A stretch of 64,000 bases of DNA from Bugula neritina (taxonomy: Eukaryota; Bryozoa; Gymnolaemata; Cheilostomatida; Bugulidae), in assembly GCA_964035545.1 (NCBI GenBank), contig OZ037771.1:3461128-3525127 (forward strand), given 5' to 3'. Shown here piece by piece: positions 292 through 35,800 of the stretch; within the stretch, counting starts at the first letter, position 1; each line of letters begins with the position of its first letter. The translations under genes were made by a program, and so were the position numbers. The notes under the pieces were generated by a model. It saw nothing but the letters and a program-made list of their open reading frames with translations, ran no database searches and was not told where the DNA came from.

Positions 292-438
292 CTGTTCCAT
301 CTGAATGTGACACCTGGAGTCAGTGGTCAGCATGTTCTTTGACCTGTGGTCAAGGGGTCAAGACTAGAACCAGGAACTGTCCAGTTTGCCCTAATTTTAC
401 CTCTCAAACTAAAAACTGTCAAAGCTCATCTTGTACCG
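292..438 (+). other. Gene A exon: thrombospondin type 1 repeat, copy 1
   Basis: One exon with phase-1 introns on both sides encodes a complete TSP1 repeat. It shows WSQWSACSLTCGQG, an R-x-R pair (TRTR) and six cysteines ending in SSSCT. The W-x-x-W pattern is the family's C-mannosylation site, and CSLTCG fits the O-fucosylation motif. TSP1 repeats are extracellular adhesion and matrix-binding modules. The module directly precedes the first RGM-like domain, as copy 2 precedes the second. Confidence 0.93.
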
Positions 439-3400
439 GTAACTTATTCCATCTCTATAACATACAAGAATTTAAAGTTTTTAAATCATTTTTAGTAATA
501 TATTTGGTCATAAAATGATTTATGGAATTTGATTGATATTTAATGGAGTAAGTTAGCTTGATTAGCAAGGCTTTTACCAAACACACATGAGTTTCAAATG
601 TAATAGAGAAAATTTTTAGCCAGGCAAATAAAGTACGCATTTGATTTTAATGTTAGAAAGTACGTAGTTGGAGTTGTCTTGTTTCTTCCAAAGCATTAAT
701 TCTATTTATTTGACGATATCAAGTTTGGATATTACAATATCTAAATCTGTACATACTTCTATGTTTAACAGCTCATAGTCTTGTAGTTTAAAAAGGAAGA
801 GTTTATCAAATTGGTTAGTACTTTGTTGAACTCAACTCAAACAATTTATGCTAGGAGTTATTGTGTTTTTCTACTGCTAGTGTTTGTATTTGGTAATTTC
901 CCATGTACTTTGACTGATTAGACTACAAAAAATTTAATTTTACAGATAAAATACCCTAGAAATAGTGGAAATTATTGATGATCATTTAATTGTAATTTGT
1001 TTTTCCTCTTTAGGGGAAATTGTCTCTCAACCTTTTGCCCGACAACTGGACAAGGCGAGTAAAGTGTGCAACTATCAGAGATTTGTGGGAAGAGTTGAGA
1101 AAGTCATTTCCTCTTCTTTGAAGTCGAATTTAAACAAACCGATGGACGTAATGAAAATAGCAGACATTCTACAAAACCTGGCAAAGTAGGAACATGGGCT
1201 ATGAGTTCTCTCAGCTTTTTTATTATTTTTGTTCTTTCATTAAAAAATTTAATCAATTAGAAATAGGAAAAATATGCGGTGGTGGCAATCTTTAATTATA
1301 TGTTTCTGTGGAAGTGTAAATGTATATTAAAAAATGTTTTAAGCTAAACATATGTTTAACCAAGTTTATACAAATAGAGTCAGATTTATACTTATATAAT
1401 ACACTGCCAGTTGTTTTGAACCAATTGCCACTTGTTTCAAGTGAATAGTCACTTATATTTAATACTTGATAAATATTTATATTTTAGTACTACTACTGGC
1501 CCACTGCGCTGCTTTGCCAAAAATCTTCACTCTTTCTGTGCGGAGAAAAACGTTGACCTTGGTGTAGCCTTGGGCCAGACATTGCCTGTCATCACTGTGA
1601 CCACTCTGGGCACATTCAACATTTCTACAGCTGCAACTGACTACAGGCAAAGAAAAGTAAGGCTATTACCATAGTCAAGCTATTATGTAAAAACTGAGAA
1701 TTTTCTTGGTTCTTTACAACAAAAGTCAATTTTGTATACTTATACGAGCACATGGCAAGCAGACAATTTTAATAACTTATTTTTTAGCTGAAATTTTCAC
1801 AACAATGTTTTCATAACTAAGAAAGTTTCCAAATGTTTGCCTTCCTTTAGTATATCAGTTTTGTTATAGTTGTTCTGTCTATTTCCAGTCATTCAAAACT
1901 AGTGACAGAGTAACGGTTGCAGTAGTTGGTGATCCACACGTCAAGTCCTTGAAGAGTCAGAATGAGTTTGAAACGTGCAGTGAGTTGGAATACTTTGCCT
2001 CTCCTCCAGACTCCGAGGAGTTTGATATCTCAGATAATGCAGCTGTCGGGGAGCTGGTTGAAGACGCGGGGGCGCTGGTAGCGGGTGAGAAGTCTGTCCT
2101 CCTTTCTAACGAGTATTTAACAGTCGAAGGAACTCTGGCTAGATGGTCACCATACTCAAATGGAACACATTATAAAGAGGTTAATATTTGAAAATTTATT
2201 TCTAGATTGTATAATTTAATTTAAAGTTTGATATTTTTTCAATCTAGTGTAATCAGCTTTGCTCATTATCTCTATGAAGCTTGTATCATTGCTTTAAGAA
2301 CTCTGTGTTTGAGGATTTATACATGGCATTTGTTTGGTTTTAGATAAACCTGATGTTGCTAGACAAAGTTGGAATTGAAGATAGGCCAGATGAGTATGTG
2401 ACCTACAAATTCAACTCAACAAGTGATTTGATATCTCCTCAGTTTACTAGGGAGAAGTATAGTGTGGATGACTACAGACTGTTGGAGACATCTCTGATCG
2501 GCCCATATGTCGAGGTTTGTACTGCATTGGAATTAATTATCTAACATAAGTTTTTCATATTTTATGGTAGTATTAGGTTGACTAACTAAATAACTAATCA
2601 TCTACCTGACTAACTGATCAATAAGCTAGTTAACTCACTCTCACTCACTCTCACTCACTCTCACTCACTCGCTCGCTCTTTTACTCACTCGCTCACTCGC
2701 TCACTCACTCACTTTCACTAACTCACTCTCTTACTCACTTTCACTAACTTGCTCACTCACTCTTGATCTTTAATCTGTAAATTGTGATATGAAAATTTAA
2801 TTTTAAAAATTTGAAAAAATTATTTTATATAACTGAACTAATAAAAAATTAAAATGTCAACTACTCTGAGTTTTTTTTTGTATAAAATTGTTATTAGTGT
2901 GTCTCTCTGAAATGATAAAAAGATCAGCCTTATATTGACACTCAACAGTCTCTTGTGAAAACAGACACTACCTACTGTTGTAGTCTGACAGAAGGTTTAA
3001 CCTTAGCATTGAGACCAAGGAGATTGACTCTACCAAGCATGTGTTGGTGAAAGAGACTAATACTGGCACTGTTGTAGATCTCAGTAACCCCTCATTGTAA
3101 GCTTCTTACATCTTCGCTTTCAACAAATTATTTGCTTATGTGTTAGACTGAAGCTAAGTTAAGTTCGCACATGCTCCAAGTGTGCAGATTACTTAACTTT
3201 CATCTTTTAACTGTCAAATAGCAAGAAGCAGATATTGAACTATATAGTATTTAGTATATATTTTGTGTGTGTGTGTGTGTGTGTGTGTGCGTGCGTGCGT
3301 GCGTGTGTGTGTGTGTTCTTTGGAAATGTAACGTATAACTCAACAGCGTTTCGGCATGTGACAGTGTCAAGCAGGCAATGCAAGGTGTCTGAAGTGTGTA

Positions 3401-6400
3401 TTAGATAACATTATAACATATCAAGTTTTTTTATAGCACATCAACTTGATGTTGAGTAGGTCACATGACTTGCTTAAATTTAATTCTGTTTTAAAGTAAA
3501 TAAATTTGTTAAAATTTTATTTCATGAATAATGTGACTTTCATAGCCTCTGTTCGTTCCACAGGGAGGTTGTCAATGCGCACGTTCGAACAGCTCTCTCT
3601 ACCCTTGAACTATCTACCGGGCTGCTTGTTGAAGGCTGCATCGACCCAGTAAACATAACGGAGAAACTTCTAGAAGCTAACATAACAAATTCTCCCCTGT
3701 GTAGCAGCTGCACTGGCTTAAAGTACACTGAGAATTGCTTCTATGACTGTTTAGTAGCGCGAAACTCTAGCATTCTTCCGTCAGTAAGTTTTCAGACTTG
3801 TATTTTGTTTTACTGACAAAATTGAAGTTTGGTTGGTTATGTGGTTGTAGTAAAAAGTTCCAACTTTCACTTCCATTTATTTGCAGGCTTGCTTGCTACT
3901 AGTTATTTGTTTTTCTTGCAGGTTATGAACTGCTTTTATACAAATTGAGGAGTAGTAGTGGGGAAATTGAGATAGTCTAAATTCTTTAAATTTCTTTATA
4001 AATTTTGGTTTGGGCGCAGGTTGAAATTCTCGCGAGAACATAACTTCTTTTGCTACATTTTTAATGTAGAACACAGGCTTTTTTTAATTTCTTCCTTACT
4101 GCACCTACCTCCTTTTATGTTACTAGTCTTTTCTGTTTAATTGTTTATTTATCTGTGGGTTGTTTTCAGACAGCCACCTCTACCTGGACAGGACTTCCTT
4201 CTGTGGACATAGTTGAGGGTTCCGCCTTAGAAAATGAGATGTTTTCTAATGCTGCCGAAGAGCTGGAAGTTCTGGCGCAGGTTACACGCCCTCCTCCAAC
4301 ACCTGAAGATATGGCAGCTTCTGGTGGGAAAAACCCAGGTATTGTGTGGTGGTTCAGTTTCAACGCCTCTGGCAGGGCTGCTCAGTGATAGAGTGTGAAA
4401 AGATCATTAGTTAACTGATTCACATGAGAATTATGTGTATTTCAAAATATTGTTCAACTTTTTTAAAAGACTGTAAAAGCAGCCAATTTTAGAAGTCAAT
4501 TTTTTTAATGTTGATTAGTATTGTTATGAATCCATTGGTTAGTATCTTTGAAAAAGCTAGAGATTTCTTGCACTCAAGCATTTTTCTAATTTGACTTCTT
4601 GTTTTCTAGTTATTTTGTGCTGTAGTGTCAGATAGTAGTAAAACTCACCCATGTTTTGAAAGTCGCAATTTTAAAGAGAACTCTAGGAAGTCAGAGTCTT
4701 TGAGGAAAGAGGCTAGCTATGCTGTCAACATTAGTCTCAAGTTTTCAAAATAGCCCAGCAGTTTCTCTACATATGTCTTTTCTGGCATCATCAGTAATCC
4801 TTTAAGGGCTTAATCTTTTAGCATACTTGAACTACCTGCACACACTTGCACACACCTGCACAGGAGTGTGCAGGTGTGTGTTAGCAGTATTACCTGCTGG
4901 CCAACTGCTGTTCCTCATCTGCCAAATGCAAATGTAATCGATTAATTTAATATTGATCATGTCATATGCGGGCAGTTTTACTCATCATAATTATATACTT
5001 TTCATGTTTAACAAAGTATACTCTTTTTACAAAATCTGTATCACATCTTAAAAGATTTACTATTGAAGTTCTTTCATTGTTTTATTTTTTGTTTTCAACA
5101 TTTGCAAAGCAAAGCTAAAAGATAGATTATCTACGTTTTAGTTGAAGATCTGGAGGCAGAGATTGGGTCAATCATTGAAGACAATTTCAATGACCTAGAA
5201 TTAGAAGGTATGATTGAGACGCACTCTCTGTTTATCTACTAAGCAATATTATTAATGCAATCAAAGCTCAGTAAGAGCAACTGCAGGAAATCTAACATTA
5301 TTCATGCTATACAAAACTATCCTTGCTCTTTCTATCTTAGCAGAAGAGTTTATATGTTAGATAAACTTGTTCACACTTTTGTGTCTATTATTAATACAAT
5401 AATGTGGAATAAGAGTTTTATTAAGGGACTGCAATGTCATGTACATCATTTGTAAGACAGTCTTGAGAGTCTGCTGTAGAAACTTGGCCAAAGTAATTGC
5501 GATGAGTAATTGACGCTTACCGAGACATAGATTTATGGCTCCAAATCTGCATTCCAAAATGTTTAAAAGTAAAGTTACCGTGAAATAATATAGTCACTAT
5601 ATACATTTATAGTTTATGAATAAATCTCTAACATTCATTAATCAATTTTTGACAATATTGTAAAATACTTTTTGTAAATCTAGAATAATTTTGTGGTGCT
5701 GATACTTGTTGGAAAAGTTATTTGTATTTTCCTTAACAAAATTTTGTGGATTTTCTTTATTGTCAGGTAGTGTATTGAAAATAACTTGGGCTCTCATTTA
5801 TGCTATAGCCTGTAATGAATTGTGAATAGTTTGTCAGAACCTGCACCAACTTGCAATAATTTGTCAATAACATGTAGTAACCTTAAATCTGTAGCCTTCA
5901 ATTAGGTAAATATTTGTTGAATGAAATCTAATTTTTAAGAAAATGCAGTACATGCACTCACCACTTCAACGAGATACTGAGCTCATTAGGTTTTTCATTT
6001 TCTAAACTTTTTAGACTTGTGCACTTTAATTTTTATTTGTCACAGATTTTTGGAAATATATTGTAGGAATTGGTGGAGATGCAGATGAAATCACCATGAC
6101 AACAGAACCTTCTGAAGAGGAAGGTTCTGCTGCGGGATCTAATGTAGAAACAACTGAAGGAACTACTGCAGTGTCTAATGTAGAAACAACTGAAGGAACC
6201 ACTGCAGAGCCTAATGTAGAAACAACTGAAGGAACTACTGCAGTGTCTAATGTAGAAACAACTGAAGGAACCACTGCAGAGCCTAATGTAGAAACAACTG
6301 AAGGAACCACTGCAGAGCCTAATGTGGAAACAACTGAAGGAACCACTGCAGTTTCTAATGTAGAAACAACTGAAGGAACTACTGCAGAGCCTAATGTGGA

Positions 6401-9400
6401 AACAACTGAAGGAACCACTGCAGAGCCTAATGTAGAAACAACTGAAGGAACTACTGCAGTGTCTAATGTAGAAACAACTGAAGGAACCACTGCAGAGCCT
6501 AATGTAGAAACAACTGAAGGAACTACTGCAGTGTCTAATGTAGAAACAACTGAAGGAACCACTGCAGAGCCTAATGTAGAAACAACTGAAGGAACCACTG
6601 CAGAGCCTAATGTGGAAACAACTGAAGGAACCACTGCAGTTTCTAATGTAGAAACAACTGAAGGAACTACTGCAGAGCCTAATGTGGAAACAACTGAAGG
6701 AACCACTGCAGAGCCTAATGTAGAAACAACTGAAGGAACCACTGCAGAGCCTAATGTGGAAACAACTGAAGGAACCACTGCAGTTTCTAATGTAGAAACA
6801 ACTGAAGGAACCACTGCAGAGCCTAATGTGGAAACAACTGAAGGAACTACTGCAGTGTCTAGTGTAGAAACAACTGAAGGTTCTGCTGCAGGATCTAATG
6901 TAAAAACAACTGAAAGAACCACTGCAGAGTCTAATGTAGAAACAACTGAAGGAACCACTGCAGTTTCTAGTGTGGAAACAACTGAAAGAACCACTGCAGA
7001 GCCTAATGTGGAAACAACTGAAGGAACCACTGCAGTTTCTAGTGTAGAAACAACTGAAGGAACCACTGCAGAGCCTAATGTGGAAACAACTGAAGGAACC
7101 ACTGCAGAGCCTAGTGTACAAACAACTGAAGGAACCACTGCAGTGTCTAATGTAGAAACAACTGAAAGAACCACTGCAGAGTCTAATGTAGAAACAACTG
7201 AAGGAACCACTGCAGTTTCTAGTGTGGAAACAACTAAAAGAACCACTGCAGAGCCTAATGTGGAAACAACTGAAGGAACCACTGCAGAGCCTAGTGTACA
7301 AACAACTGAAGGAACCACTGCAGTGTCTAGTGTAGAAACAACTGAAGGAACCACTGCAGAGCCTAATATAAGATTAAGTGAAGGGATTTTTGCAAAAACT
7401 GTTGGCGTAGGCCGAGTCATCAGGCTGTCTACTGTAGAACCGCCTACAGGAGCCAGTGTAGAAGCTATTGAGAGATTCGGGAACAGTAATTCTGCTGGTT
7501 CCAATGGAGAAACGAATAACTCAGAATCAAGTAACAGACGTACTAAAAAAGGTCGCAGTACATTGCTGCATTTTGACAGCATCTAATATTGTTTGAAGTT
7601 TTTTTGGTATCACCATACAAATTTGTTGTTTTTATACAGTGTATTCTAACTTCTACAACATTTTAAAAATGTTTAGATGTATTTTTACACAAATCTACTA
7701 CTATTGTTTACTGTTGCTGTTCACCTTGTAGTGTTGAACAGTCGTCCCCCTCTGCCATCGTACAATGAACAAGCGTGTAGCTTTAGGGAGATGTTTGATA
7801 CTATCAGGCCATGTCTAACTGAGGCAGTGAAAGTAGTTTATGATGATTTCAATACTGACTGTGAGTAGTCTGTTGGTTTTATTGTAGATTATATTTTAGC
7901 AAATTCAAATTGTATTTTAATAATTGTATTCACAGTTTTATTAAGCTGAAGAAAATGCAGGGGTGTGCCTGTTTCAAATTGACACAAACTACTTTTAATG
8001 CTTAAAGTTTTGTGTCAGATAAAATGTTTGACTCAAACTAATTGTGTGCCAGTCATTTCATTCTATTTAATTTCTATGTTGGGAACTTATGTAAAAATAT
8101 CTTATTCTCGGCCAACCTTGTTTTCACTCTAGAACTATTTTGATTTTCTATAATTTAGTTACTTGTCAATTGCAATTAACCAATAATACTTTTAACACAG
8201 GAATATCAATTGTTATAGATATACAATTAAATCAATTGTTCTTTTCTTTACATAAAAGCAATAACTAACAGCAAGGATTTTTTTCTGTCACTTTGCCTCT
8301 CATTACTGATATGATTTCGTCTTTCCGGCCTTGATAAATTTAGAGATCACAGGGTTTTCTTATCATATGTTTTTTTAATTTTGACAAACTGGTTCTATTT
8401 TTTGCTTTAGTTTTGCAGAGATCAACAATTTTTATTTATAAGTTGCAACAAGTGGGCAGCTTTCTGGAGTGCATTTCAAATGATTTGTAGTTCCGAGTGG
8501 ATGTCTTAAACCATTTCCATCAGATCTGGTGACAGCTGTTCTTGGTGGGCAGCCCCTCCCTTCGTCTGCAGAGAACGAGAAGATTCAGCAACTTCTGGAC
8601 AACCTGACTTTTATAGAGAGTCGCCATCTTGATTCCAGTTTGTAATAAATCTGCTCTATTGTTTGGACAGTCAACTTTTTTATTCCAGTTTATAAAAAAT
8701 TGATTTACATTATTGATTTATTTAGTTATTTATTACATATCACAGACATAAAAACACATTGCAAAATTCAGTGTAAAAATACTGACCAAAATAAGTAGAT
8801 ATGAACAAAAGTGGGGAAAAAAATTTTGCTGGATTATATAACCTAAAAAATCATTTGAAGTATTTACAAAGTCTCGTAAAAGCTATCTCTGCCCCATGCT
8901 CTTCTATATTTAATGGTTTGATATCTTCCAGAGGGGCATTGACTCAGAAACTTACTGATAAAATGATCATTATATTGCACATCTTTTTATATCAAGTAAC
9001 TGGAAACTATAACATAAACATATGTTTGTACCCCGCATAATTGTTATATAGGATACAGTATTTCTGAATATAATACCTGTTGGTTGACAGGTTATTCTAC
9101 AAGATTCCCAAAGTATACGGGTGATTTGGCAGCAGCCGATTTGAACGTAGCATTAGGCAGCTGGTATTTTGCACCAGATTTCAACAAGTTTTCTACCAAC
9201 AGTGTGCCTCGGAGCACTAGCACTGGCTCTATTACAGTACCATCTTGGCTTAGTTCCTTCCCTGGAGTCGATAATCATCGTAAGACAGCAAATCTTGTAA
9301 CAGTTTACTCAATACTGTTAACATCTGTTGTATTACACGTAGTCCCTAAAGTCAATTTGTTTTCTGTATACAAATTTTTAAGCTTGTTTTTTGTTGAAAT

Positions 9401-12400
9401 ATTTTGCATCATCATTTCGTGGTTTCTTTTTGCCAAATATTGTAGTTGACAGTTTGACAGTTTGACAACTCATGTTACCAAACATTTCAAAGTATTTACT
9501 TTCTAGTCAGAAATCTTTGCTTTACAAAGCGTATGCTTCATCATTTAGCAATGCTTTGGTCAAGCACATTCTTGCAACTTAATCAAGTTTTAATATTTGC
9601 ATAAAATAGTTGGTAAAGATTCACTAAAGTTGTTTTATCTTTAGTTGTATCAACCTATTTACCAACTGGGCTGACTTATGCAAATACATTATTCAAGGAG
9701 TACACCCCGAGTGAGCATGAAATTACCAGAAGGGCAAAGGTTTGTACTGATTTTTGTGCCATTGACACATCGTTAGATCATGTTCTAGCTTTTAAATTAG
9801 ATCAAATTGAATTGTAGCTGCATTTTGAGAAAAGACAACTACTAGTCGTTCTCATGTAGTTGTAAACCAGAATATTCTTGTAACGCTAATGCCTATCGCA
9901 TTTTTCTTTTTCATGCAACATATTTATTTGTTTTCTAAAATGTATAATAATAAAATGGTATTCAGGGTGTCATATATTATAGCTATAATAGTGTCTTTAT
10001 AAATAATGTTGCAAAACTGCAATTGAAACACACCATTTTATTTCAAACAGATTTCTTGAGAATGTTTAGGGTGATAGCGAATAAAGCCAAAATTCTATTG
10101 TAAGTAGTTTAATATCTTTGAAAAAATCACTGCTGAGATTTTTTAATAAGGAAAATATTTCACTGGTTTTTTGTTTAAAAAATTTAACATCGTTCAATCA
10201 AAATCGTATTGTCTATAAAAATTGTGTAGTCTTAGAATCTTCATGCCAATGTTTTTAATTATGATAATGAAATTCATAGATTGATTTTCACAAAAGTGAA
10301 TACTGGTTGTTTTTTTGTTCTAAGACTGTTGTATAGCCAACCACTTGTATTCTCAGGTCCTTGCTGGTACTGCTAGTACTAACAGTACAATGGACTATGG
10401 CAACTTCAATCGTAGCAACCTTCAAACTTATCTGTACGGGCTTAACAGACTCAGCACTGAAGCCAGAACTAATTTTGAACAAAAAGAACAAGAGTTTCTC
10501 GAAACACCTCTAGCTGAAAGTGATGAGCAAGCATTATATGACACTATATTTTCACTCGCTTGCCCCCTCAAGAATAACAGCAACTTTTTGGACTATGCCT
10601 TTGTAAGTGGTTTTGAGCTGCTAGTTATAAACATAATCATCAAAAACACTTACATATGTCCTAAAAAGGAAGATTTGTTGTAAGCTCTTCTATCATTCAG
10701 CTGTAACTATCACAACATTTCCATGGCATACGCTTAAAATTATCGTTTACATCTTTTTACTATGTTTTTATGTAACTAGCCGCCACAATTGCCCATCTCT
10801 GCTTTCATCACAAAAGAGTTCATTCGATTAATTCTTTATTTCGGATGACTCGTTTCCAAGCTACGCATTATGCAAATGGAATTTTCCTGTGAATGAAGGA
10901 ATAAATTTCTGGTTGTGACTTTCATTTGATGCAACTGTTTCTAAGCATTGAATGAATAATCCATACACATAATGTGAAGCATGGAAATATCTGTATATGT
11001 GCACAACACCTGATATAGTGTACTGTAAGTCATAAGAAATTAATTTCAACTGTTAGCAATTCAAGGTGATGAAAATAGCCTTAGTTCAACTGCGGTAGTG
11101 GGTGAATGTCTATTAAACTACTGACTGTTTTGTCTTGTCTAGAACGAACAAAATGTTGACACTGACTCTCGCTATGACCGGTTCTCTTCAGAGAATGGAA
11201 GATTCAGAAGGTTTAAACAACTCGGTAAAGTTTATTCATATTTTAAAAAAAGATTACTGGTCTTTATTTTAATGGCTAGAGCTGAAATTAGTTTTTTAAT
11301 TTTGCATTTGATTCAGACAATTTAAAGAGCATGTAAAATCTGAAATGATTGTGATTTCAATATATTTTTAATTATTTTAACTGAATCACATTAACCATGT
11401 TCTAAAATCTAGCATTATAATAAAATAGTTGTTGCAGCATTGTCGCTCATTGACACATTTAATAGTTTATAGAAACTATTTCAATAAAAAGATAGCATCT
11501 TGTAGTAAGAAATGGTGAACTTAGTTTGACCTCTGAAGAGACCTCATACAAAGAGATCCAAAGTGCAATAGCATTCAACCAGTATCTGTATGACCAGAAC
11601 ATCTATAAACAGGTGAACTCTAAGCTTCTGTTAATTCTAGTTACTTTTAAATACTAGTTAATAGCCAGTCGTAGTCGTTATATTCTATACTACTATATGC
11701 TATATACTAGCAGGTATATAACATATACTATATGCTATATGCTAGCAGGTGTATAACATATACTATATACTATATACTAGCAGGTATATAACATATACTA
11801 TATACTATATACTAGCAGGTATATAACATATACTATATACTATATACTAGCAGGTATATAACATATATACTATACTATACTTCAGCTCGTCACCAGACTC
11901 CAGGGCTCTTCATTAGATGAATACTTGGAATCCCAGCTGCTGAAAGTATTTTATAGTAAGTAACATCTCCATTCTACTTTCAGCTGAGTTGATTACGAAA
12001 ATGCAGCAAGTTTCACATTACATACTCTTCTGTCCGCTCAACTATCATACTTGTGTCATGTTTGTAGTTTTTTTCTTCAACATAATTGGTGCATATAAAT
12101 GTGACACAAAACACTTTGACTTTCAATTCTTTCATTTATTTAGATTTTGTTGAATGTTGGTAATGTTTGTATAGCGGCCAGTTCTGCAAGTCCAGCTAAT
12201 GCTTCGTAGTATAATTTTTCAGTTAGAAATATTCTGGATACCCAAAGTATGCAAACACTATTTGGAGAAGAGCTGCACTACTTCTACTCGTATATAATAA
12301 ATGGACCAGCTGCAAAGGTGAGCAAAATAATGCAAAAATGCATAAATGTAAGGGGAGACAACTGTTACTCTTGTAGTATATTTATGGCTACTTTAGGTGT

Positions 12401-12501
12401 ACACAACCCGTTGTCATCGTAAAAATAGTTGGTCAACATAACCTTTTAATTGTGCAACTCCGTAAATTTTTGTTTAGTGCACAAAGTTAATTTATGTGCG
12501 C

Positions 12502-12544
<43 letters not shown>

Positions 12545-15500
12545 AGTGTGTGCATGTGTGTTTTTGCTCTCTCTCTGTGTTGAAGGTAGCTTATTATAAG
12601 AATTATTTTACCTTTGTAATCTTTTGATAGAAAATGGCTGAGTGGAATGTTCGAAAAATGTCTGATTTACATTATGAAGCAACTATTCCAGGGGTCAGTG
12701 TGCGACATTTCACCATGCATGAGCTAATTCAACAGTATTTTAGTAAGTAGCCATCTTGAGTATACACACACACACACACTCACGCACACACACACAGCAG
12801 TGTATGTCGCTATATTATGTAAATTGATTATTCATTTTAGTCTGCTGCAATGTGTTGTATTATGTTGCATTATATTGTCTTCTATTATATTTCATTTTAG
12901 ACCATCAGCCTAACATTAGATGCCCAAATGTCATACACATGTACCAGTCAATTCGCAAAGGGAGAAGGCGACTGAGCAGGTTAAGGAAAGACGATAACCG
13001 CATGTTTAAGCTCAACATAGAAAAGCTTGTGAAAGCTATGGCATCACTCATGAAATTTACAAAGGATAATATCGTGAATGACGGTTTGATTTTAAACTTG
13101 GCACTTTTTTGCTACTCACTCTCTGCTCATCTGTTTGTTGTATGTGTGTCTTTTGCTATGAAGAGTCTTCTGTGTAGCAATATTCACGTGTCCTCTTTGG
13201 TTCTTCTAGAATTACTCTGTAATTATATTCTCCAATCTCCAATACTTTACAGCAGGTATTGATCGCACTTTATTATAATCACTGCAGCAACCTGTTTATT
13301 AACCATTATAACCGCCAGTAAGTTATAATACAATATAATATTCTATTATATTATATTATATTACATAAAATAGTGTGTTGTAGCAAGCAGATGTAGAACG
13401 CACATATCAAAGCTTGACAGCCTTCACCTTCTTGACCAGGTAGCATCTGTTTTCTTGGAGTATTTTGAACTTTGAATACATGTAGTCTGACCCATTATTG
13501 TGTACTCATTTGACCTAAAAACATGTTGATATGCTGACCTAGTAATTTTTACACCCTGATCTAGTTGTATAGACTGTAAGGGTATGTTACTGTGTATTTC
13601 CTGACCTATAAATGTGTATAGTTTGCTTGAATTTGATAATATTTAAAGTCTGAAAAGCATCAACTGTTCGTAAATTGGCTTTTAATTCTTTTGCAATACA
13701 TAATATGTTCACATGCAACCAATGCTAGCAAGTTTTTGGTGCTTTTATTTTCATTTTTCTGTTGTAAGTTATAGTTTTTACTGTGCTGTATATTTTACAG
13801 TGAGGTTTTGTTTTGAAAAAGTAGGCTGTAATCTATATCCTAATTCACACCCTCTAGTTCATTATTTGGCACAACCTTCCAATAGACTTTCATAGAAACA
13901 CTTATATTGCAGCTGATGTCATTTCTCCCTGGATTGGTGTACATGAAGAACTCATTTGGTAAAAAATATTTTATTCCGGGAGCTCCTCTTCACGATAAAC
14001 TCACAGAGGAAATTAGTCTAGCATTTCATGACCTTGGCATTGAATATCATGATTTGTTGAGTGAGACAGACATTTTTGAATTTGACACGTTTTACCGATA
14101 CGTTCAAAACTTCTGCAGGTAAAAATAATTTTACTTCTTCAAAGCATCAATAGTGGCATTTCTAACTGAAAATTTTGCATTATTTTTATATTTAAATATT
14201 ATTACAGAATTTTATATGTTCAGTCTGGAGACCTGAACTAAATCGAACTCAACAAAACTGCCTTGTTGTGACGGCTAGCTGGTCAGTTCAACAACTTTTT
14301 CACTTTGCTGTAGATAAATGTACTGACTTAGAATGGAAATAAAATTCAGTATTTAAACCAAATCTTGTGTTAGAAACTTTATTGAAATGATTTTTGACAT
14401 GTTGCTTTTGATAAAGGTTTATTGCTTGAAAGGTGAAAATTAAAAAAAATATTTTATATGGTTTTTTTTTTACTTTGCTTCTAGTTCGGACTTTTGTATA
14501 GTTCAAATTTTGTCCTAGACAAATATTTTTAATTGAGATCACAGTTTTAAAATGTGATTTTATAATTTATTCGTTTTTATTCTCTTGCTAGTTGTGATTT
14601 TTATTTTTGGATTTGTATATATTTTTTCTAAATTGATTGCACAATGTACTTCCGAGAATAATGAAATGCATCTCTACTGTTGCACTTCATACTTTATACG
14701 ATGTTTCTTGTTTTATTCAGCAATTCACAGATTATTTAAAACATGGGAGAGAGCTCATAGAAAAAATGTTCTATGATGCTTGCTGTTTTAGACTATTCGA
14801 GGGTTTGAGTCAGTGTATGGAAAGAACGCTGACAAGTTTTGGAAATACTGCGTGTGGAAAAAGATGGCCGAATATGAGAACTTGGATTGAGACGTTGCCT
14901 TTGAGAGTATGCACCAAGGATGCTAGTGGTCTGATTATCAGCCCAGCAACAGTGGATGGTGAGACTTCTTCTACGTTATATATTACTCTTCTACGTTATA
15001 TATTACTCTTCTACGTTATATATTACTCTTCTTTGTTATATATTACTCTTCTATGTTATATATTACTCTTCTTTGTTCTTTAACAATAGGTAGATTTAAG
15101 TTTTTGATAGATACAAAAAATGCTACTGGTAAAGTAAGTTATAAGTATTAGGTCATCAGTGACATAGAAACGTTGTAAACAGTTGCACATCGGATAAACA
15201 TTTTAGACTAGAATCCGCTACACTGTAAACTGTTCAAAGGTATTGTTGGTGTTGCAATTTTGTTGTTTGTTGCAAAATAAACTTTAATATCTGTTTTTTA
15301 AATTAGACATGGTTTCTTGCAGGTAATAAATTTTGTAAACAACATAGATCTGTTTGAAATTAGTGGGTGGTACTTGAATCATTACTCAGCTCTGGGCTGT
15401 GAATATATACTTGAGTTCTGCACCTTGTACACTTGCACCCTCATCATGTCTAAGTTATATATCCAGTATTGAGATACGGTATCTGTTAATGTAGATGAAG

Positions 15501-18500
15501 ACAAAACACATGCACTTGTGTTTTCCATCTTTCTGTTGCAGTGTTGAGGTCAAATTTTGATCATATGTTTGGCTATGTTTCTTGCATTATTGACGAAGAA
15601 AGTATCTCTACGCCAGCAGCAGATACTGGTGGTAAGCTGAGTTTCTTTATATACGACAAACTTCTTGTTTTTGTCTAGCTTCTTCCTTTTTTACAGTGTA
15701 CGTCCTAATACCAATCTGTGTCCGTGTTGCAGGCACTAGCGGATGGCTGTTCCCCTGGGGACAGTGGACGTCGTGCTCTGCGACATGTGGTGAAGGAACT
15801 CAAACTAGGACCAGACATTGTATTGCTTCACCATGTCAGACTGAGAGTAGAGCCTGTTTCCAGGTACATTGCCCAGGTAAGAATAACATCGTCTCCATGC
15901 AGTTTTGGGAAATACGTGCTTACTGTGTGTAGAACATACAGAAGTTATGTGCGTACATTTTAATTTTTTGTTCCACGCAAAAGTAAACGACTAAGTTAAA
16001 AGCACTTTGTAATGATCTGCATTGCTAGCTCTATATCCATCTCAAGATTTCATGTGACACTCGCGCAAGTTTATAGTCGCCATTACTGTAAGAAACCACT
16101 GATGGAAAGGGTTTTTGTAAAAATGGGTTAAGGACTTATTTAAATGAGGCACAGGAGCAATTATGGCTGGATGCTTTTTCTAACATCATCAATAGCCTTT
16201 GCCTGGGCTTGAACCCATGACTTTGTGTTTACTAGGCAAACGCTCTAACCCCTAGACCATGGCTGCTCTAGGGGTTAGACACTGAAGAGTAAATATTTTT
16301 TAACAATGTATGCAATAAGCGTTGTGGAATTTGTTGTATCATTGATATATGTTATTTATCTTCAGTCGATCTTTTCTACGTGAAAACTAATGATTGGTTG
16401 ACTGAGTTTCAATGAGATTTTCCTACACCATCACATGTGTCAATAGCAACTCCAATCTATTATTGACAAGGCTAGCACAGCATTTTGAAAATTTCAAATA
16501 GTCTGTGTTTTAGAGAAAATCATAGCTAGAGATTTTTGTACTTGAGACTGTGGTACTTGAGACTGTGATACTTGATCCTGTCGTACTTGAGACTATAGTG
16601 GTGCGGTTTAAATACGTAAGAGAATTTTCTCTCTGGTTCAGACGCTTTTTGTGTTTATAGGACAAACTTTCAATGATTATTATGCCGATGCTACTAAAAT
16701 ATGTGATGTAAAAGGCTTTGTAAAGAAGATTGAGAAGACAATTTCTTCAGTACAGAAATGGAATGATAATCAACCATTGGACATAATGAAGATTGTAGAT
16801 GTAACTCAGACTATTGCCAAGTGAGTCACCATGTGCAGACAACTCTTATTAAAGTTGTAGATGCTCTTTAGTAAGCTAGTTATTTTGCATGTTATGTCAA
16901 CTGCTATATGGTATCATATATTAATATGTTTTTAATTGATGATTTATAATGCTTTTATTTCATCTCCTTAGTAATTTGCTTCAAATATCAAGTTTATCAT
17001 AAGGCTATTGCTCTAAAAAAATTTCTAATTTCTTTTACTTTTATAAAACTAAAATAAAGATAAATATGAGCTATAATATGTTTGAAAGGAATGCCTTTTT
17101 TATATGTTACTTATTTGATTTGTATTGATTTATCTTAATCTGCATTAATATGTAATGCTTTGTGTGAATTAATGAAACTTCTAGTTGTATAGATTTAAAG
17201 TAACTTTCTTCTAGCGCTACAACAGCTCCACTGAGATGTCTTGGCAAGAATCTCCACACGCACTGTGCAGCTCACAATATTGACCTTGGCCTTGGGTTAA
17301 GGCAGACATTGTCAGTCATCACCATGACGACACTAGGCATATTCAATGCACCAACCGCATCAGCTGATTACCGCAATACAAAGGTATGCGTGTGTGTTCA
17401 TTGAGAAATTTTATTTCAGCTCTCGGGTGAAAGTTTTATGCCTGACAGTCTTCATTTAATATTTTGTTTTTATTTTTTAAAATTTCAAATAAGTTTCGCG
17501 TTCCTTAACATTTGAGTGTAAAATAGTATTTAGTCGATATTGAGATTTTTCTGGGAGAAATTCAGTTTTCACATGCCAACTAAATTAATTTAATTCAGTA
17601 GGAAAAAAAATTCCAGACATTTTTTTTATTTCCAGTCATTCAACGCTAGTGACAGAGTAACGGTTGCGGTAGTTGGTGATCCACACGTCAAGTCCTTGAA
17701 GAATCAGAATGAGTTTGAAACGTGCAGTGAGTTGGAATACTTTGCCTCCCCTCCAGATTCTGAGGAGTTTGATATCTTAGATAGTTCAGCTGCCGGGGAG
17801 CTGGCCGAGAACGTCGAGGCGCTGGTAGCGGGTGAGAAGTCTGTCCTCCTTTCTAACGAGTATTATATACTCAAAGGAACTCTGGCTATATGGTCACGGC
17901 TCTCAGTTGGAAGTTTCTTTAACCAGGTTTGCTTTGTTACTTCTTTTAAATTAAAGAGAAGTGTTTTTAGAAATGATTAGTGAAAACTTTGCCAAATAAA
18001 GTTTTTGTCAATTGTCTCATAGCTTTTATTTTCTGACGCTTCAAGTCAGTTTTTTCAACTCAAACAAAATGCCACTTAAATATGTGACAGCTACTTTTAT
18101 GCTTACTATGTAGTGTAGACTATTAAAAACATTTGATTATAGATGAACAAATGGCATGTCGCTAATTTGCAGCTTATAAGTTTAATTTAGTTCAATTTGC
18201 GAAATATTAGTCAATTTTAAAATCTGTAGACACTCACAAAATAAGGTGATGGGGCTATGTCATTGCTGTATTCAGCTTTGGCGGTTTTGTTAATATTTAA
18301 AACATTAAAGCAAGCACGATTGTTGAAATATTTTATTTTGATTTGGGAAAAGTTGGCTTTAAACTATGCATTTATTTCAAGCTATACATTACTTTAAATA
18401 ACTTACTATCAAATAAGTTTGATCTGCATGTTTTTTATTTGTAGATAACTTTAATTGTGCCAGAAAAGTTTGGTGATGGAGACTCTGTGCCAGATGAATA

Positions 18501-21500
18501 CATCATGTATAGACATAATGCCACGAGTGACATAACAGCCCCTCAGTTTACACGAGTTCAGTACAGTACTGATGACGACAGTTTAATTAATGAGGCATTA
18601 GCTGGCACAAATATTGAGGTTTGATTGGTCGAATAAGCAGACAAGGTTGTCATGTTTTGTCTCATTGGAGGAAACTCAGAGTGAATAAGAAATATTATTT
18701 TGTTTTTTAAGGAAACCCATCGCAGAGAAACTATGGTTGTCAATCGTTATCTATCTCATCGGTGTTTTACGTCTTGAGGCGCCTGGGTTTATTCTTTTTA
18801 GTCTTTTAGAGATAACCAACTGTGACTTTCATCTTACGACACATTTACCTCTAATTAAACTTAAGCGACGTTAAAATATTGTGTTTGGCCTTGGCTCCGT
18901 GAGTTTGATTTTTTAATTGTTTAGGCAGCAAATAAGAAGTTTCACTTGAAGATTCGAGCAAAAGTTGTGAACTCAACTAACTTTGTTATTGTGGAAGAGA
19001 TGAACTCTGGAAGTATTTTTGGTTTTAGTAATCCTTCAAGGTTAGTGTTAAATCAGTTCTTTCTATGAAAGCAATTTTTTTATTCAAGTTAGAGTTGTCA
19101 ATAAAATAAATTTAAATTCTAAAAAGCATCATTCTTGTGTGTATAATTTCATTTATGTTAAACATAGCATATGAAATTAAATCAATATATATATGCTTAT
19201 GGAAGATTGTTTGGTGTGCATAGGTGATGTTGTAAATTTCTGTTAAGATAAGCATTGCTCTAGTGATTATTTCACTCTTCTCATCATTTTCAGGATTTGC
19301 TGAAAAACTTTGATTTATTAAAATTCATTGCTACTGTGTTTTCAACTACCAGGAATGTTACCAATGTCTATGTTCGGGCGGCCAGAGCTTTGCTTGAGCT
19401 CTCTACCGGACTTCTCATTGACGGGTGTCCAGACCCGGTGAACAAGACGGAGAGTATTGGCACATTGGGTGGACGGCGGCGACGTAAACGAGATACAAGC
19501 TGTAGTTCCTGTGACGGAGTGTCCCTGTGGCAACATTGCAACTATGACTGCGCAGTGGCAACGTCTGCAGGGTTTGCTTCTACAGTAAGCTTTCCTCACA
19601 CTCACCACCTTCTCTGGGGGAAACGCTCGTTCATTAAGAAATTTTATGTTTTAAATCTACTGCAATCATGTGACTTGAATGTTTTGACAGGCGCCACTTA
19701 TAAAGCTTTTCTGTGTTCATTGGCTTCAAACAACTGAAATCGAATTTACTTCCGGTGTGCTCAAATATATCGCTGTTTTGATTATTGTATAAAACCCCAA
19801 ACCCGATGTTGATTACGCACGCCCAAACTGATGGTTTAAAATTAATTTTTACTTCCAAAGTCACTCCATCAATCGTTTAATATACTAGAGTCTAAACATT
19901 TCCTTTTCTCATTGAAAAATACAGAAACTGGCCTTTCTTTGTATAGCAGTAGTTTTGTAGCAGTGGATTTACAATAAGTGTGAAGTTATAGAAATATTAC
20001 TTGTGTTATCTTTACAACAAGTGATCAAAGAGAATATGCATGAAATGTCTCACTAGACAGTATTTAAATTTAATTATATTTAGTTAAAGTTATCGTAACC
20101 TTACTGTTGGGATGTTTTTAGTTTAAGGTGTTCTTTTATATTTACCATATTTTCATCATCGTTTTAAGTCTTGAGAGCTTCACATATTTTTAGTTCATAT
20201 CCTCATGGGGTTTTCATCACACTTACCGACAAAATTGCCAGAAGTTTTTAGTGCCTAGACAATTTGGTATACTTGAAATATGCAGCCTGGCTTTTCTAAC
20301 AGCAATGGAGAGTTTATATTATAGTTTGAGTTTTATATATGTGCAAATAGAAGACGCAGGGTCTTACTATTCTACTTCACTGAAAATAAACATCTCTTGC
20401 AATTATTAGGAAAGAATTTTGTAAAATTTTGTGCATGCATGTTTTAATTCACTGTCACATTTATGACGGCTTGTTGTTCGCACTTATATTCAGGAAGCGG
20501 TATTGACTTATACTGCTGGAAATGTGTCGTCTGTTGTTCAATCGGCAACTGTAGATTCTACTCTGATTACGTCTGCTGTTGAAGAGTCAGCAGTTACATC
20601 AGTCCCACAAGATGATCAACTAGGTAAGATTAGCTTGTACTTTAGATTGTTATGTATTTCCTAGAGTTTTGTGTTGTTATCTGTTGTCTTTTAGAGTGTA
20701 ATTTTTGTGATCTCAAGTTTTTCTTAGAATCATTAATAAATTTTGACCTTAGTTTACCTTGACCTCAGTTTACTTTGACCTCAGTTCACCTTGACCTCAG
20801 TTTACTTTGACCTTAGTTCACCTTGACCTCGCTTTACCTTGACTTCAGTTCTTCTTTATACGTTATTGACTAACATTGCAACATTAGAATTACATGGTCT
20901 TTAACTTGATTTTGATAAGCAACATTGAAACTCACCATAGCTGGAGAAGAATCATGTTTTTTTAACAAACTTACTTTTTGTTACTATCTTATCATTTAAA
21001 ATTTAGAAGCACAGATCTTATTAAAATTATTTTGACAACATTCAGGAGCACTCACTTAGTGCTCATCCTGCACTCATTCAGTCCTTACTCAGTGCTCATT
21101 CAATACTCACTTAGTATTCATTCAGTACTCACTCAGTACTCACTCAGTACTCATTCAGTACCCATTCAGTACTCATTCAGTACTCACTTAGTACCTACTC
21201 ACTTAGTACTCACTAAGCACTCACTCTGTATTCAGTTGGTACTCATTCATTACTCTACTCATTCAGTACTCTACTTAACAAGTACTTTATTTTAGTCAGT
21301 ACATAGTAGGAATTATTGTCCGCAATATCTGATCTCATTTATCAGAGAAATATATGACTCAAAAAATTTAAATGTATGAAATTTGAAAACCCACACCACA
21401 TGACCTAAACACAAGATTTTGAAGCGTAGAAAATTTTAATCTGATTATGATCACAGAAAGTTTGTTCAGCTGATGAAACATGAGGCAACATGAAACATTT

Positions 21501-23994
21501 CTCACTTTAATGTCAGTATGTGGTCTGCATTGCAGCTGGAGAGATTGATCAGGACTTGACCAGCACTGGTGAAGAAAATGTTAACAATGCCAATGTAGCA
21601 GGTATGGATGTTATTTCACCATTTCCTTGTCCCACCTCCCTACTTGTAAATGACTTTCCTGACCAAGTGATGATTTAAATGCACCACTAATGGTAGAGTT
21701 TAGCCTGTGTAACTATGTACATGCCAACTTAAAGGCTATTACTTTGTAATATATCTATTCAAAATAATGGTTGGAATTCATTAATAAATATTGCAGATGG
21801 AGTTAATGATGAATTGACTACGTCGCCAACTACCACTACGCCAACTACCACTACGCCAACTACCACTACGCCAACTACCACTACGCCAACTACCACTACA
21901 CCAACCACCACCACGCCCACCACCACCACGCCCACCACCACCACGCCCACCACCACCACGCCAACCACCACCACACCAACCACCACCACGCCCACCACCA
22001 CCACGCCAACCACCACCACGCCCACCACCACCACGCCCACCACGCCCACTACCACTACGCCAACCACCACTACGCCCACCACCACCACGCCCACCACCAC
22101 CACGCCCACCACCACCACGCCCACCACCACCACGCCCACCACCACCACGCCCACCACCACCACGCCAACCACCACCACGCCAACCACCACCACGCCCACC
22201 ACCACCACGCCAACCACCACCACGCCAACCACCACCACGTCCACCACGCCAACCACTACTAATAATCAAGTCGATGGTAATTAAAATTCTGTTTATCTGT
22301 GTACCTAGTACTGTACATACTATTTTAATTAGTTATTGGGGGTAATTTTTCAAAATACATGATTGAGTTTGTTTTAATTAAGAGAAGAATATTTCTTTTG
22401 TTTGTTTTTAAAGGAGCTTCATAAAATTACTTTGATGCAGCAACTGTGTATGCCAACATATCTGAATGTTCGTATATGTTTGAATCTAACACAGTTTTAT
22501 TTTTCTCCAAAACTAGTTGTTTTTTATTGAAAGTTTAAGATTTACTCATATCAACATTAAACAAAATCAGAAAATTTTCATTATGATTTAAAAAGTAGCT
22601 GGGCATCCATTACCTTAGAGATGAAAATTCTCACTTGAGAGTATTACTGTTTTATATTTAACCACCTTTAGTTTTGTTGCTTTTAATAAGAAAAGATATA
22701 CAATATATATATGTGCGCGCGTGTGTGTATATACTGTATATACAGTATATACTGTATATACAGTATATATGTATATACAGTTACACAGTATATACTGTAT
22801 ATTGTGTACCATATATGCCTGTGTGGCAGTTGTTACTCGCCTGGTCCCTTTGATTATTTAATTAGTAATTTCTGTGTTTTTTGTTTGCAGTCACTACTAC
22901 TACTGCGGGTAGTTGTGGAGGCACCCTCACTGCTTCTTCTGGTACTCTAACATCTCCCAACTACCCCGAAGATTTTCCTGAAAACTCCTACTGCGTGTGG
23001 AATATCACGGTACCCAGTGGAGTTGTCTCCCTTACATTTTATGATGTAGACTTTGAGGGCGATGCTGCAGGATGTACTGACAATCTTTATGTGAGTTGGT
23101 AGCTGTCGTCTGTGTTTTATATATGTTTGGTTGAAAATTTGCTCAAATGACACTAGCTTTAAAAAGATTTTTGAAAAAATGGCTACATTTCCTTACTTAA
23201 AAATGTGCTCTTGTTCCTTTTTTATTAGTGAGGTAACACATTTTTCAACGTGAAAAAGTCATTTTTTTAAAAATAAATTGTAAGCTAAATTCAAAGCACT
23301 ATGAGGCTTACTCTTGATACCCAATGTCTAGCTCTCATTGTATAAATAACATGAGTTTACTATATTTTTAGTGTGTAACATTACTTATATCAATAAGGGT
23401 GTCAATAAATATAGCACTTTTCACTCAAGAACTATTTTTGCCAAATTAGATTCTGTCCAAAAGTTGTTTATAGTTATTACTTTGTGTGTTTTTGTAAGTG
23501 TTAAAACTTATAACAGTCTTTACAAATATTCTTTCATTTGTTATAGTTTTTTAGTATTGTATAATATTTATCATGCGGTCTTTAAATTCTATTTAGATTT
23601 GAAATGTTGGACGTGGATGTTATTTTAGTTATCAAAGCCAAAGAAACGGTTGATGAAGCTGCATATTAGTATAATTTAAAATTATAATACTGAGATTTCT
23701 TATTTTCAGGTTTATAATGTGCCCAGCAATGACTATTTCTTTTCTCTGTGTGACTCGGCTGTTCCTGTAACTGTGACTGGAAACTCCAGCTCTATCAGTG
23801 TTGTCTTCATCAGTAATAGCTCTAGTCAAGGTCATACAGGGTTCTCTGCTAGTTGGTATGCTACTGTAACTACATCGACTGTTTCCCCAACTCTTTCCAC
23901 TAACACAGACGTTGTGGAGTGCTCTTTTAAAGCTGCTCTTCGTGCAAACTTGTTGTTATTAGTTTTTATATCATTTTTGTATTTTGCTTACTAA
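292..23994 (+). CDS. Gene A: giant TSP1 / RGM-like / mucin / CUB mosaic surface protein, 5'-partial
   Basis: Multi-exon gene that enters the window in an intron, so its start and signal peptide lie upstream. I place 37 exons: 292-438, 1014-1185, 1488-1656, 1889-2179, 2344-2514, 2984-3096, 3564-3783, 4170-4338, 5142-5207, 6067-~7530, 7732-7860, 8524-8637, 9091-9279, 9645-9739, 10357-10602, 11143-11224, 11506-11612, 11886-11955, 12223-12317, 12631-12742, 12901-13083, 13384-13439, 13913-14118, (14208-14217 tentative), 14721-14958, 15542-15631, 15733-15876, 16661-16820, 17215-17383, 17636-17926, 18445-18618, 18925-19040, 19353-19584, 20494-20623, 21536-21601, 21797-22276, 22891-23090, 23710-23994. 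Domain-level exons are mostly flanked by phase-1 introns, the hallmark of module shuffling. The C-terminus ends in a hydrophobic tail with no cytoplasmic residues, typical of a GPI signal. I infer an extracellular, GPI-anchored protein of at least ~2,480 residues. Least certain are the donor near 7530 and the junction after 14118. Confidence 0.8.
2632..2765. repeat. CACT/CACTCT simple repeat
   Basis: Degenerate (CTCACT)n in a gene A intron, with CGCT and TTCACTAA variants. Confidence 0.9.
3263..3315. repeat. (GT)n microsatellite with GTGC core
   Basis: Short (GT)n / (GTGC)n tract in a gene A intron. A similar tract lies at about 12498-12560. Confidence 0.9.
5142..7530 (+). other. Gene A: acidic linker exon and Thr/Glu-rich mucin-like stalk
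   Basis: A 66-nt phase 1-1 exon (5142-5207) encodes a short acidic linker. It is followed by one very large exon (6067 to about 7530) made almost wholly of a 12-residue repeat of the form VETTEGTTAEPN or VETTEGTTAVSN. The Thr density suggests heavy O-glycosylation and an extended stalk. The 3' end is uncertain: phase-1 donors exist at 7485, 7530 and 7551, and I prefer 7530 (AA then GTAACA). In the second unit the matching positions hold a 66-nt linker exon and a PTTTT-repeat exon, so this is the duplicated counterpart. Confidence 0.75.
6144..7367 (+). repeat. Coding minisatellite, 34 units of 36 bp
   Basis: Exactly 1,224 bp divides into 34 units of 36 bp, each encoding 12 residues. Units alternate between EPN, VSN, ESN and VSS endings in higher-order blocks. 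The first half is nearly homogeneous; the second half carries more substitutions (ERTTAES, KRTTAEP, VQTTEG). Because the period is a multiple of three, the array is also open on the reverse strand. Those antisense ORFs are by-products. Confidence 0.95.
11690..11872 (+). repeat. 35-bp AT-rich minisatellite in gene A intron
   Basis: About five units containing AGCAGGTATATAACATATAC and ending just before the exon at 11886. The units contain CAGGTATAT, a splice-site-like string, close to a true acceptor. Confidence 0.9.
14967..15075 (+). repeat. 20-bp minisatellite beside a gene A donor
   Basis: Five to six units of TTCTACGTTATATATTACTC starting about 9 bp after the donor at 14959. Confidence 0.9.
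15733..15876 (+). other. Gene A exon: thrombospondin type 1 repeat, copy 2
   Basis: Single phase 1-1 exon of 144 nt, against 147 nt in copy 1. It encodes FPWGQWTSCSATCGEG followed by TRTRHC and four further cysteines to HCPG. The W-x-x-W and CSATCG motifs match C-mannosylation and O-fucosylation signals. It opens the second TSP1-RGM unit. Confidence 0.93.
16058..16275 (-). mobile_element. tRNA-Thr-derived SINE, copy 1
   Basis: On the reverse strand it starts GAGCAGCCATGGTCTAGGGG (A box). A TAGTAAA anticodon-loop-like stretch and GGTTCAAGCC (B box) follow. A shared tail includes GGATGC and ATAATTGCTCCTGTGCC-like sequence. It aligns along ~215 bp with 40971-41184. It lies in the gene A intron after TSP1 copy 2. 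Confidence 0.75.
16661..20623 (+). other. Gene A: RGM-like (vWD-type) domain, copy 2, with polybasic site
   Basis: Seven exons mirror copy 1 in phase and nearly in length (160/169/291/174/116/232/130 nt, against 172/169/291/171/113/220/169). Landmarks are LRCLGKNLHTHCAAHN, VVGDPHVKSL (GDPH codons 17675-17686), NEFETCS, LLSNEYYILKGT, STGLLIDGCPDP and CSSC...CNYDC. Between the GC motif and the CSSC cluster lies GGRRRRKRDTS (basic codons 19474-19491), a strong furin-type cleavage site absent from copy 1. Vertebrate hemojuvelin is cut by furin in the same interval, between its GCP motif and the last Cys cluster, giving a soluble form. I infer two possible processing events for this copy: Asp-Pro autocleavage and convertase cleavage. 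Confidence 0.74.
20755..20850 (+). repeat. 16-bp TTGACCTCAGTTTACT minisatellite
   Basis: About six units of CTTGACCTCAGTTCAC or TTTGACCTCAGTTTAC in a gene A intron. A second array of CAGTACTCATT-type units lies at about 21040-21290 in the same intron. Confidence 0.85.
21536..22276 (+). other. Gene A: linker exon and Pro/Thr-rich stalk
   Basis: A 66-nt acidic, Asn-rich linker exon (21536-21601) precedes a 480-nt exon (21797-22276) encoding PTTTT repeats. Both are phase 1-1. The sequence would be an O-glycosylated rod that lifts the upstream domains away from the CUB domain and membrane. It corresponds by position to the ETTEGTTA stalk of the first unit, although the repeat unit is unrelated. 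Confidence 0.85.
21826..22260 (+). repeat. Coding minisatellite, 15-bp PTTTT unit, about 29 copies
   Basis: Tandem 15-bp units (CCAACYACYACYACG and variants) in frame with the exon. One shortened unit near 22037-22045 gives PTTPTTTT, and STTPTTTNN closes the array. Long antisense ORFs rich in Val/Gly or Trp across it are artefacts of the period. Confidence 0.95.
22726..22812. repeat. AT-rich palindromic repeat
   Basis: Alternating TATATACTGTATATACAG units read the same on both strands, so this stretch can form a long hairpin or cruciform. It ends about 80 bp before the CUB exon of gene A. Confidence 0.85.
22891..23994 (+). other. Gene A: CUB domain and C-terminal GPI signal
   Basis: Two exons (22891-23090 and 23710-23994) encode one CUB domain of about 110 residues. 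The four family cysteines are visible (SCGGTL, YCVW, GCTD, LCDS), with the typical TSPNYPEDFP and GFSASW motifs. A Ser/Thr linker and a final hydrophobic stretch LLLLVFISFLYFAY then run straight to the stop. A hydrophobic end with no following charged tail is typical of a GPI attachment signal. A short single-pass anchor is the alternative. Confidence 0.9.
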
Positions 23995-24144: not shown

Positions 24145-24150
24145 AATAAA
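24145..24150 (+). terminator. Probable poly(A) signal of gene A
   Basis: AATAAA lies 151 bp after the stop codon. A second AATAAA lies at 24330-24335. Gene B has lost both at the equivalent positions of the duplication; the first reads AATCAA there. Confidence 0.6.
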
Positions 24151-24489
24151 TTTTCTAATGAAATTTACCAATAATAGTCATAGTTTGTAATGCAGAGCTT
24201 CACAGTTTTTTTTTATCAACTTAATTCTGCCTCTATGAGTTAGGTGTTAAATGTTAGTATGTACTGCATTGTAATAACTTTACTTAGTTTAAAGTTTTAG
24301 TTTTTGTAAGAAGCCAACAGATTTTCAGTAATAAAGTTGGTTAGTTGGTATGGCTGAACATAAGAACTAAGCCTGTATACCAATATTTTAAAGTGGAAAA
24401 TTTAGGTTTCTATTGCACCACTATTATTTCTGCTGCTTTTGTTATGGTGGGTTTTACTGATTTTGAGTATTGTAAACTCACCTAATAAT

Positions 24490-28955: not shown

Positions 28956-35800
<6,845 letters not shown>

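Follow-up and report, generated by a model that had tools for sequence, protein, structure and literature searches.

A two-unit gene related to the RGM C-terminal domain in the bryozoan Bugula neritina, with a probable origin by fusion of tandem genes

The stretch of DNA analyzed here (the window) comprises 64,000 nucleotides of chromosome 7 (C7) of the bryozoan Bugula neritina (assembly GCA_964035545.1, contig OZ037771.1; C7:3461128-3525127, plus strand). It contains a large part of a giant gene that carries two units, each with a thrombospondin-type (TSP1) exon and a block related to the C-terminal domain of the RGM family, whose human members act in guidance and in the control of iron. Coordinates are given in window numbering unless a chromosome prefix precedes them (C7, C6 and C1 for chromosomes 7, 6 and 1), negative values lying upstream of the window. 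The gene extends from position -9951 (C7:3451176), 9.95 kb upstream of the window, to a stop at 23994, and it was spliced by hand, from the genome sequence only, into 53 exons with one open frame of 3306 amino acids (Table 1).

Exon borders were set at GT-AG sites, in some cases with the other unit as a guide, so the splice sites (52 of 52 introns GT-AG) follow from the way the model was built, as does part of the phase match. The uninterrupted frame of 3306 codons, with a single stop at the end of the chain, is the part of the model that is independent of hand placement. The first exon, judged by an ATG followed by a hydrophobic leader, continues into a low-complexity stretch and ends in ..KAKKG/gt (the slash marks the exon border). 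A first-pass annotation of the window had suggested that more units might lie upstream; the upstream sequence was read to this first exon, and no third unit was found in the gene. Past the final stop, the first AATAAA lies at 24145 and the next at 24330.

Each unit consists of 25 exons in the order h01 to h15, TSP1, N1, N2, GDPH, C1, C2, C3, T1, T2 and mucin, and after both units come two CUB exons, the second of which closes in a hydrophobic tail. The window takes in exons h01 to h15 of unit 2, and those of unit 1 precede it. Hand splicing recovered the exons of the first-pass annotation at their coordinates, with the equal lengths quoted for N2 (169/169), the GDPH exon (291/291) and T2 (66/66), and the motifs GDPH, FETC, NEY and GLL-x-x-GC were found in both units. 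Its layout of two units was borne out by the 25 paired exons, but its unit start was not, as 15 further paired exons (h01 to h15, ∼660 amino acids per unit) precede each TSP1. The placing of both units in one gene is backed by the anatomy, with one open, phase-consistent model. Exons h01 to h15 are helical in appearance (by eye); those of unit 1 gave no Pfam match at E ≤ 10, and a three-row profile of this region found nothing better than E 0.59 in the PDB.

The chain ends as had been proposed, in CUB plus a hydrophobic stretch in the last exon (12-residue mean hydropathy, 2.83), and judged by this tail it is probably surface anchored, perhaps through GPI. A second CUB-CUB exon set with a GPI-like tail was observed at 26277-29111 (plus strand). 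Within it, the DNA at 27877-29111 shares 82 to 85% identity with the closing exons of the giant gene; the set could represent either a short gene in tandem or alternative last exons.

The exon pairs of the two units agreed in phase in all 25 cases and in length in 11 of them. Protein identity ranged from 23 to 62% in 22 of the 25 pairs, the outliers being h01 (40/43 residues), h13 (53/69) and the GDPH exon (73/97), over which DNA tracts with 87 to 91% identity were found. The h01 tract extends 152 bp into the next intron, and the h13 tract reaches back 87 bp into the intron before it; this spread of high identity into introns suggests that gene conversion, and not just selection, shaped the three tracts. 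One more similar tract, 182 bp long, inverted and intronic, is probably a dispersed repeat. In a tree of nine domains the window units were sisters (99/100 support), which is consistent with tandem duplication or conversion; their placement relative to the two C7 relatives is not settled by this tree, in which long branches meet at the root. The locus is tandem and repeat rich, as would be expected if the assembly had duplicated one unit or misjoined two loci. Such an artifact is extremely unlikely, given the low identity of the 22 pairs, the confinement of DNA likeness to three exon tracts and one inverted repeat, and an assembly described as built from HiFi reads with a QV of 53.7 (PMC11480708). 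Mucin repeat lengths in the assembly could still be wrong.

The relation to RGM was reached through paralogs on C6. Both of these matched Pfam RGM_C over nearly the full model (41.6 and 44.5 bits; cut-off, 27), and VWD was not among their Pfam matches at E ≤ 10. A window-type profile of five units, two from the window and three from C7 relatives, was aligned to the C6 pair with hhalign, resulting in a probability of 99.3 and an E of 1.4e-20 over 197 columns, the whole block (hhalign E-values are single-comparison values). A repeat of this comparison scored 145.3, whereas column shuffles reached a maximum of 24.0 and none of 200 attained the score. Against a pair of canonical RGMs, that of B. 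neritina itself (located on C1) and human RGMB, the profile scored 39.9 (shuffled maximum, 23.3), with an alignment limited to 61 to 65 columns around GDPH and NEY; the score with human RGMB as sole partner was 42.0. From the C6 matches to RGM_C and the alignment of the window-type and C6 profiles, the block that follows GDPH, itself present in both window units, is, on sequence grounds, distantly homologous to the RGM C-terminal domain, with the C6 paralogs as the intermediate, and is not an RGM ortholog.

Several results weigh against this kinship. TSP1-type models were the only Pfam matches of the two window units down to E = 10, with no match to RGM_N, RGM_C (0/2) or VWD. Two other window-type paralogs, C7 minus-strand gene 1 and the C7:210k copy, likewise failed to match RGM_C (0/2; C7 minus-strand gene 2 was outside this test). 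The score against the canonical RGM of B. neritina alone was 21.9, which is not significant. A PDB search with the window-type profile returned no RGM chain (best E, 0.13, an antibody), and one with the C6 profile found RGMB at an E of 0.033 only. Nor was a neogenin gene securely found in the genome, the one match (E 0.054) lying below the cut-off. RGM_N, the BMP-binding helical domain, was absent both in the Pfam search and in the profile alignment with full RGMs, and the unit 2 block found nothing at E ≤ 1 in a collection of 5.8 billion proteins. The idea that each unit holds a complete RGM is thus not sustained by the Pfam and profile comparisons; kinship holds for the C-terminal domain, via the C6 paralogs, and was not recognized for the remainder of RGM.

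GDPH is a motif common to von Willebrand type D (vWD) domains, and the block might be an ordinary relative of these, unconnected with RGM. The direct Pfam search of the window units, with no RGM match, would agree with this, and a published account treats the RGM C-domain itself as a partial vWD domain (PMC4395201). However, a VWD profile search of the whole genome gave at least 26 matches at E ≤ 0.001, with none at the window or the paralog loci among the matches listed. The window-type profile scored 12.9 (probability, 0.1) against one VWD domain of B. neritina, a small, single-domain control, compared with 39.9 against RGM and 145.3 against the C6 pair, which match RGM_C and not VWD. An ordinary vWD relative is therefore very unlikely. 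Mucins with vWD domains and tectorin-type proteins share a GDPH-type motif and mucin stalks with the window gene, but its units differ from them in having no VWD profile match.

A genome search with the window exons detected copies on C7 and, more weakly, on C6 (GDPH exon, E 0.03 to 0.04), and the reverse search from C6 found the window units at E 0.008 and 0.04. The C7 minus-strand pair lies head-to-head with the window gene, and T1 exons are nearly identical. Each gene of this pair has its own leader exon, ending in ..SKKG/gt in one and in ..RKS in the other, and a mucin exon that closes in a hydrophobic tail and stop. C6 gene 1 also bears a leader and a hydrophobic tail of its own; for C6 gene 2 the ends are partly settled, with a weaker tail by eye (hydropathy, 1.76). 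Single-unit relatives with both ends settled thus number three, the two C7 minus-strand genes and C6 gene 1, and the gene ends found at these loci rule out the C7 and C6 relatives as two-unit genes. No TSP1 was found between h15 and N1 in either C7 minus-strand gene, nor in the single-unit paralogs by a tblastn exon scan at E ≤ 0.1. The paralogs share the RGM-like block with the window gene, and the C7 relatives share the helical exons as well, but they have one unit per gene (in the three with settled ends) and no TSP1 in that scan, and the C6 pair is nearer to canonical RGM.

A possible diverged RGM-like copy was also noted at C6:8798076-8801222 (E 0.0026), in which GDPH reads GRNS, a change that would remove the self-cleavage motif. 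A serine carboxypeptidase S28 gene (about -16800 to -11450, plus strand; one piece with 81.4 bits, extent by eye) separates the two head-to-head loci.

Whether the two units form one chain depends on the junction between them. The acceptor of unit 2 h01 at 7732 scored 10.0 bits, compared with a median of 8.5 for the acceptors of the gene (matrix from the same sites), and the 180-bp joining intron, in phase 1, contains neither AATAAA nor ATTAAA, with AATAAA present at 24145 past the final stop. The mucin exon of unit 1 has no hydrophobic tail and ends in ..RRTKKG/gt, which resembles the first exon ends of the window gene and of one C7 relative. Other features of the junction speak against one chain. 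Donor 7551 (2.6 bits) is the weakest of the 52 used, and a donor at 7530 in the same phase scored 5.4 bits; if the latter is used, the KKG end falls outside the exon and the argument from it is weaker. In addition, a hydrophobic leader into unit 2 starts from an in-frame ATG at 7677. This leader is not strong evidence because 3 of the 52 acceptors show one, unit 1 h01 among them, although the unit 2 leader exceeds the other two in hydrophobicity.

The same features could be read as two proteins from one transcription unit (an operon or an alternative start). Unit 1 would then run to the stop at 7584-7586 and be secreted without a GPI tail, and unit 2 would start at ATG 7677, only 90 nt past that stop, via a trans-splice or an internal promoter; the short distance and an AG acceptor of 3.7 bits that precedes the ATG and its leader would suit this arrangement. 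However, acceptor 7732 is much stronger, no AATAAA or ATTAAA lies between the units, and unit 1 h01 has a similar leader despite a likely first exon before it. Moreover, all three single-unit relatives with settled 3′ ends have a hydrophobic tail, and unit 1 read to its stop would lack one. Two proteins are on this evidence unlikely, and one chain rather than two is likely. The argument for separate genes from a "signal peptide" at 7677 was demoted after the acceptor score and the chance count.

The three relatives with settled ends each hold a single unit between a leader and a hydrophobic tail of their own, so the window gene looks like a fusion product, and its source was probably a tandem pair of single-unit genes in a bryozoan family derived from RGM. 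In this scenario the upstream copy would have lost the hydrophobic tail and stop of its mucin exon and the downstream copy its leader exon, with the 180-bp intron joining the copies in phase 1. Most simply, a deletion would have merged the final exon of one gene with the opening exon of the gene downstream.

The predicted product would be a single secreted chain of ∼3300 residues. The GPI-like tail of the last exon would tether it to the membrane, and mucin stalks would bear its two heads, each composed of the helical-looking region, TSP1 and the RGM C-domain-like block. In both units this block may nick itself at GDPH, as RGMs do, the nicked parts staying together by disulfides. A furin-type site between GC and the last cysteines is present in unit 2 and not in unit 1, so the two heads may be processed differently, and furin might release the chain at the unit 2 site. 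Such a site occurs at that place in 4 of 7 family members and in neither of the two canonical RGMs examined. Hemojuvelin is described as undergoing self-cleavage at GDPH and furin shedding at RNRR (PMC4395201). The basic site of unit 2 is comparable to this RNRR site.

With the RGM family (RGMA, RGMB, hemojuvelin and C. elegans DRAG-1) the window units share GDPH followed by ..TC and N-E/N-Y, the GC pair and the final Cys-x-(F/Y)-D motif, and the gene resembles it in a hydrophobic, GPI-like C terminus. They differ in that the window chain has two C-domain-like blocks without a recognizable BMP-binding N-domain and adds the helical-looking region, TSP1, mucin and CUB. Full-length human RGMs are given as ∼426 to 478 amino acids, with shorter RGMC isoforms (PMC6370684), compared with 3306 for the two-unit window model.

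RGM C-domains are reported to bind neogenin and N-domains to bind BMPs (PMC7354924), and the form that signals is described as a 2:2 assembly of neogenin and RGM (PMC8063088). By analogy, the two heads might bring two receptor molecules together, and a bivalent surface ligand would be the most likely function. In the first-pass annotation the chain was proposed as a multivalent "ligand or co-receptor"; BMP co-reception is the weaker, less likely half of that proposal, because the BMP-binding domain is not recognizable. A more specific picture, of a covalent RGM-type dimer acting as an obligately bivalent surface ligand in a mucin-stalked GPI-type family whose copies still exchange sequence by gene conversion, and possibly serving in recognition between cells or colonies in place of axon guidance or iron control, is unlikely.

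The window gene is real and unusual, probably a fusion of two units within a surface family that bryozoans derived from RGM, with a predicted function, and it shows an RGM C-domain relative without a recognizable BMP-binding partner in a new architecture. In humans, RGMs work as small chains with a GPI anchor; a natural two-headed chain would offer a ready test of the importance of bivalence. The open-access papers searched yielded nothing on repulsive guidance in bryozoa, and among the matches listed from wider open-access titles and abstract starts no such gene was reported (subscription papers and preprints were outside the scope of these searches).

Table 1. Features of the two-unit gene (window coordinates, hand-spliced model) and its paralog loci
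Feature	Position	Strand	Remarks
Unit 1 TSP1	292..438	+	Phase 1-1; Pfam TSP_1 27.9 bits, cut-off 21.6
Unit 1 N1 (pre-GDPH)	1014..1185	+	
Unit 1 N2 (pre-GDPH)	1488..1656	+	Length equal to unit 2
Unit 1 GDPH	1889..2179	+	Opens RGM C-domain-like block; 73/97 aa identical to unit 2
Unit 1 C1	2344..2514	+	
Unit 1 C2	2984..3096	+	
Unit 1 C3	3564..3783	+	GLLVEGC, CFYDC end
Unit 1 T1 (stalk)	4170..4338	+	
Unit 1 T2 (stalk)	5142..5207	+	Weak likeness, E 0.14, to last exon of C6 gene 1
Unit 1 mucin	6046..7551	+	Proposed fusion exon; donor 7551 or 7530, both phase 1
In-frame stop if unit 1 mucin exon unspliced	7584-7586	+	
Intron joining unit 1 to unit 2	7552..7731	+	180 bp; ATG at 7677 inside
Unit 2 h01	7732..7860	+	Acceptor 10.0 bits
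Unit 2 h02	8491..8637	+	
Unit 2 h03	9091..9279	+	
Unit 2 h04	9645..9739	+	
Unit 2 h05	10357..10602	+	
Unit 2 h06	11143..11224	+	
Unit 2 h07	11506..11612	+	
Unit 2 h08	11886..11955	+	
Unit 2 h09	12223..12317	+	
Unit 2 h10	12631..12742	+	
Unit 2 h11	12901..13083	+	
Unit 2 h12	13384..13439	+	
Unit 2 h13	13913..14118	+	
Unit 2 h14	14792..14958	+	
Unit 2 h15	15542..15628	+	
Unit 2 TSP1	15733..15876	+	Pfam TSP_1 33.8 bits, cut-off 21.6
Unit 2 N1	16661..16820	+	
Unit 2 N2	17215..17383	+	
Unit 2 GDPH	17636..17926	+	DNA 91% identical to unit 1 (273 bp)
Unit 2 C1	18445..18618	+	
Unit 2 C2	18925..19040	+	
Unit 2 C3	19353..19584	+	Furin-type RRKR between GC and last Cys cluster
Unit 2 T1	20494..20623	+	
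Unit 2 T2	21536..21601	+	
Unit 2 mucin	21797..22276	+	TTTTP repeats
CUB exon 1	22891..23090	+	Pfam CUB, 65.5 bits for the two exons combined (cut-off, 21.4)
CUB exon 2, hydrophobic GPI-like tail, stop	23710..23994	+	
First AATAAA past stop	24145..24150	+	
C7 relatives, two single-unit genes	C7:3,439.9k-3,408.8k	-	Leader exon and hydrophobic tail each
C6 relatives, two genes	C6:3,264.6k-3,242k	-	Match Pfam RGM_C
Further C7 copy	C7:~210-213.6k		RGM-like block; ends not settled

Elsewhere in the window, an exon matching NOA36 (71.5 bits) was found at 32780-33037 and a LIM-domain exon (43.8 bits; PINCH-like by eye) at 57584-57934, both on the plus strand, and a (TG)n/(CA)n run of ∼1.8 kb occupies 60.6-62.4 kb. 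COX1-like matches outside the 15,248-base contig C295 were observed at C6:11174288-11174701, C196:13876-14238 and C65:41100-41507, and these are possibly nuclear copies of mitochondrial DNA or derive from other organisms.

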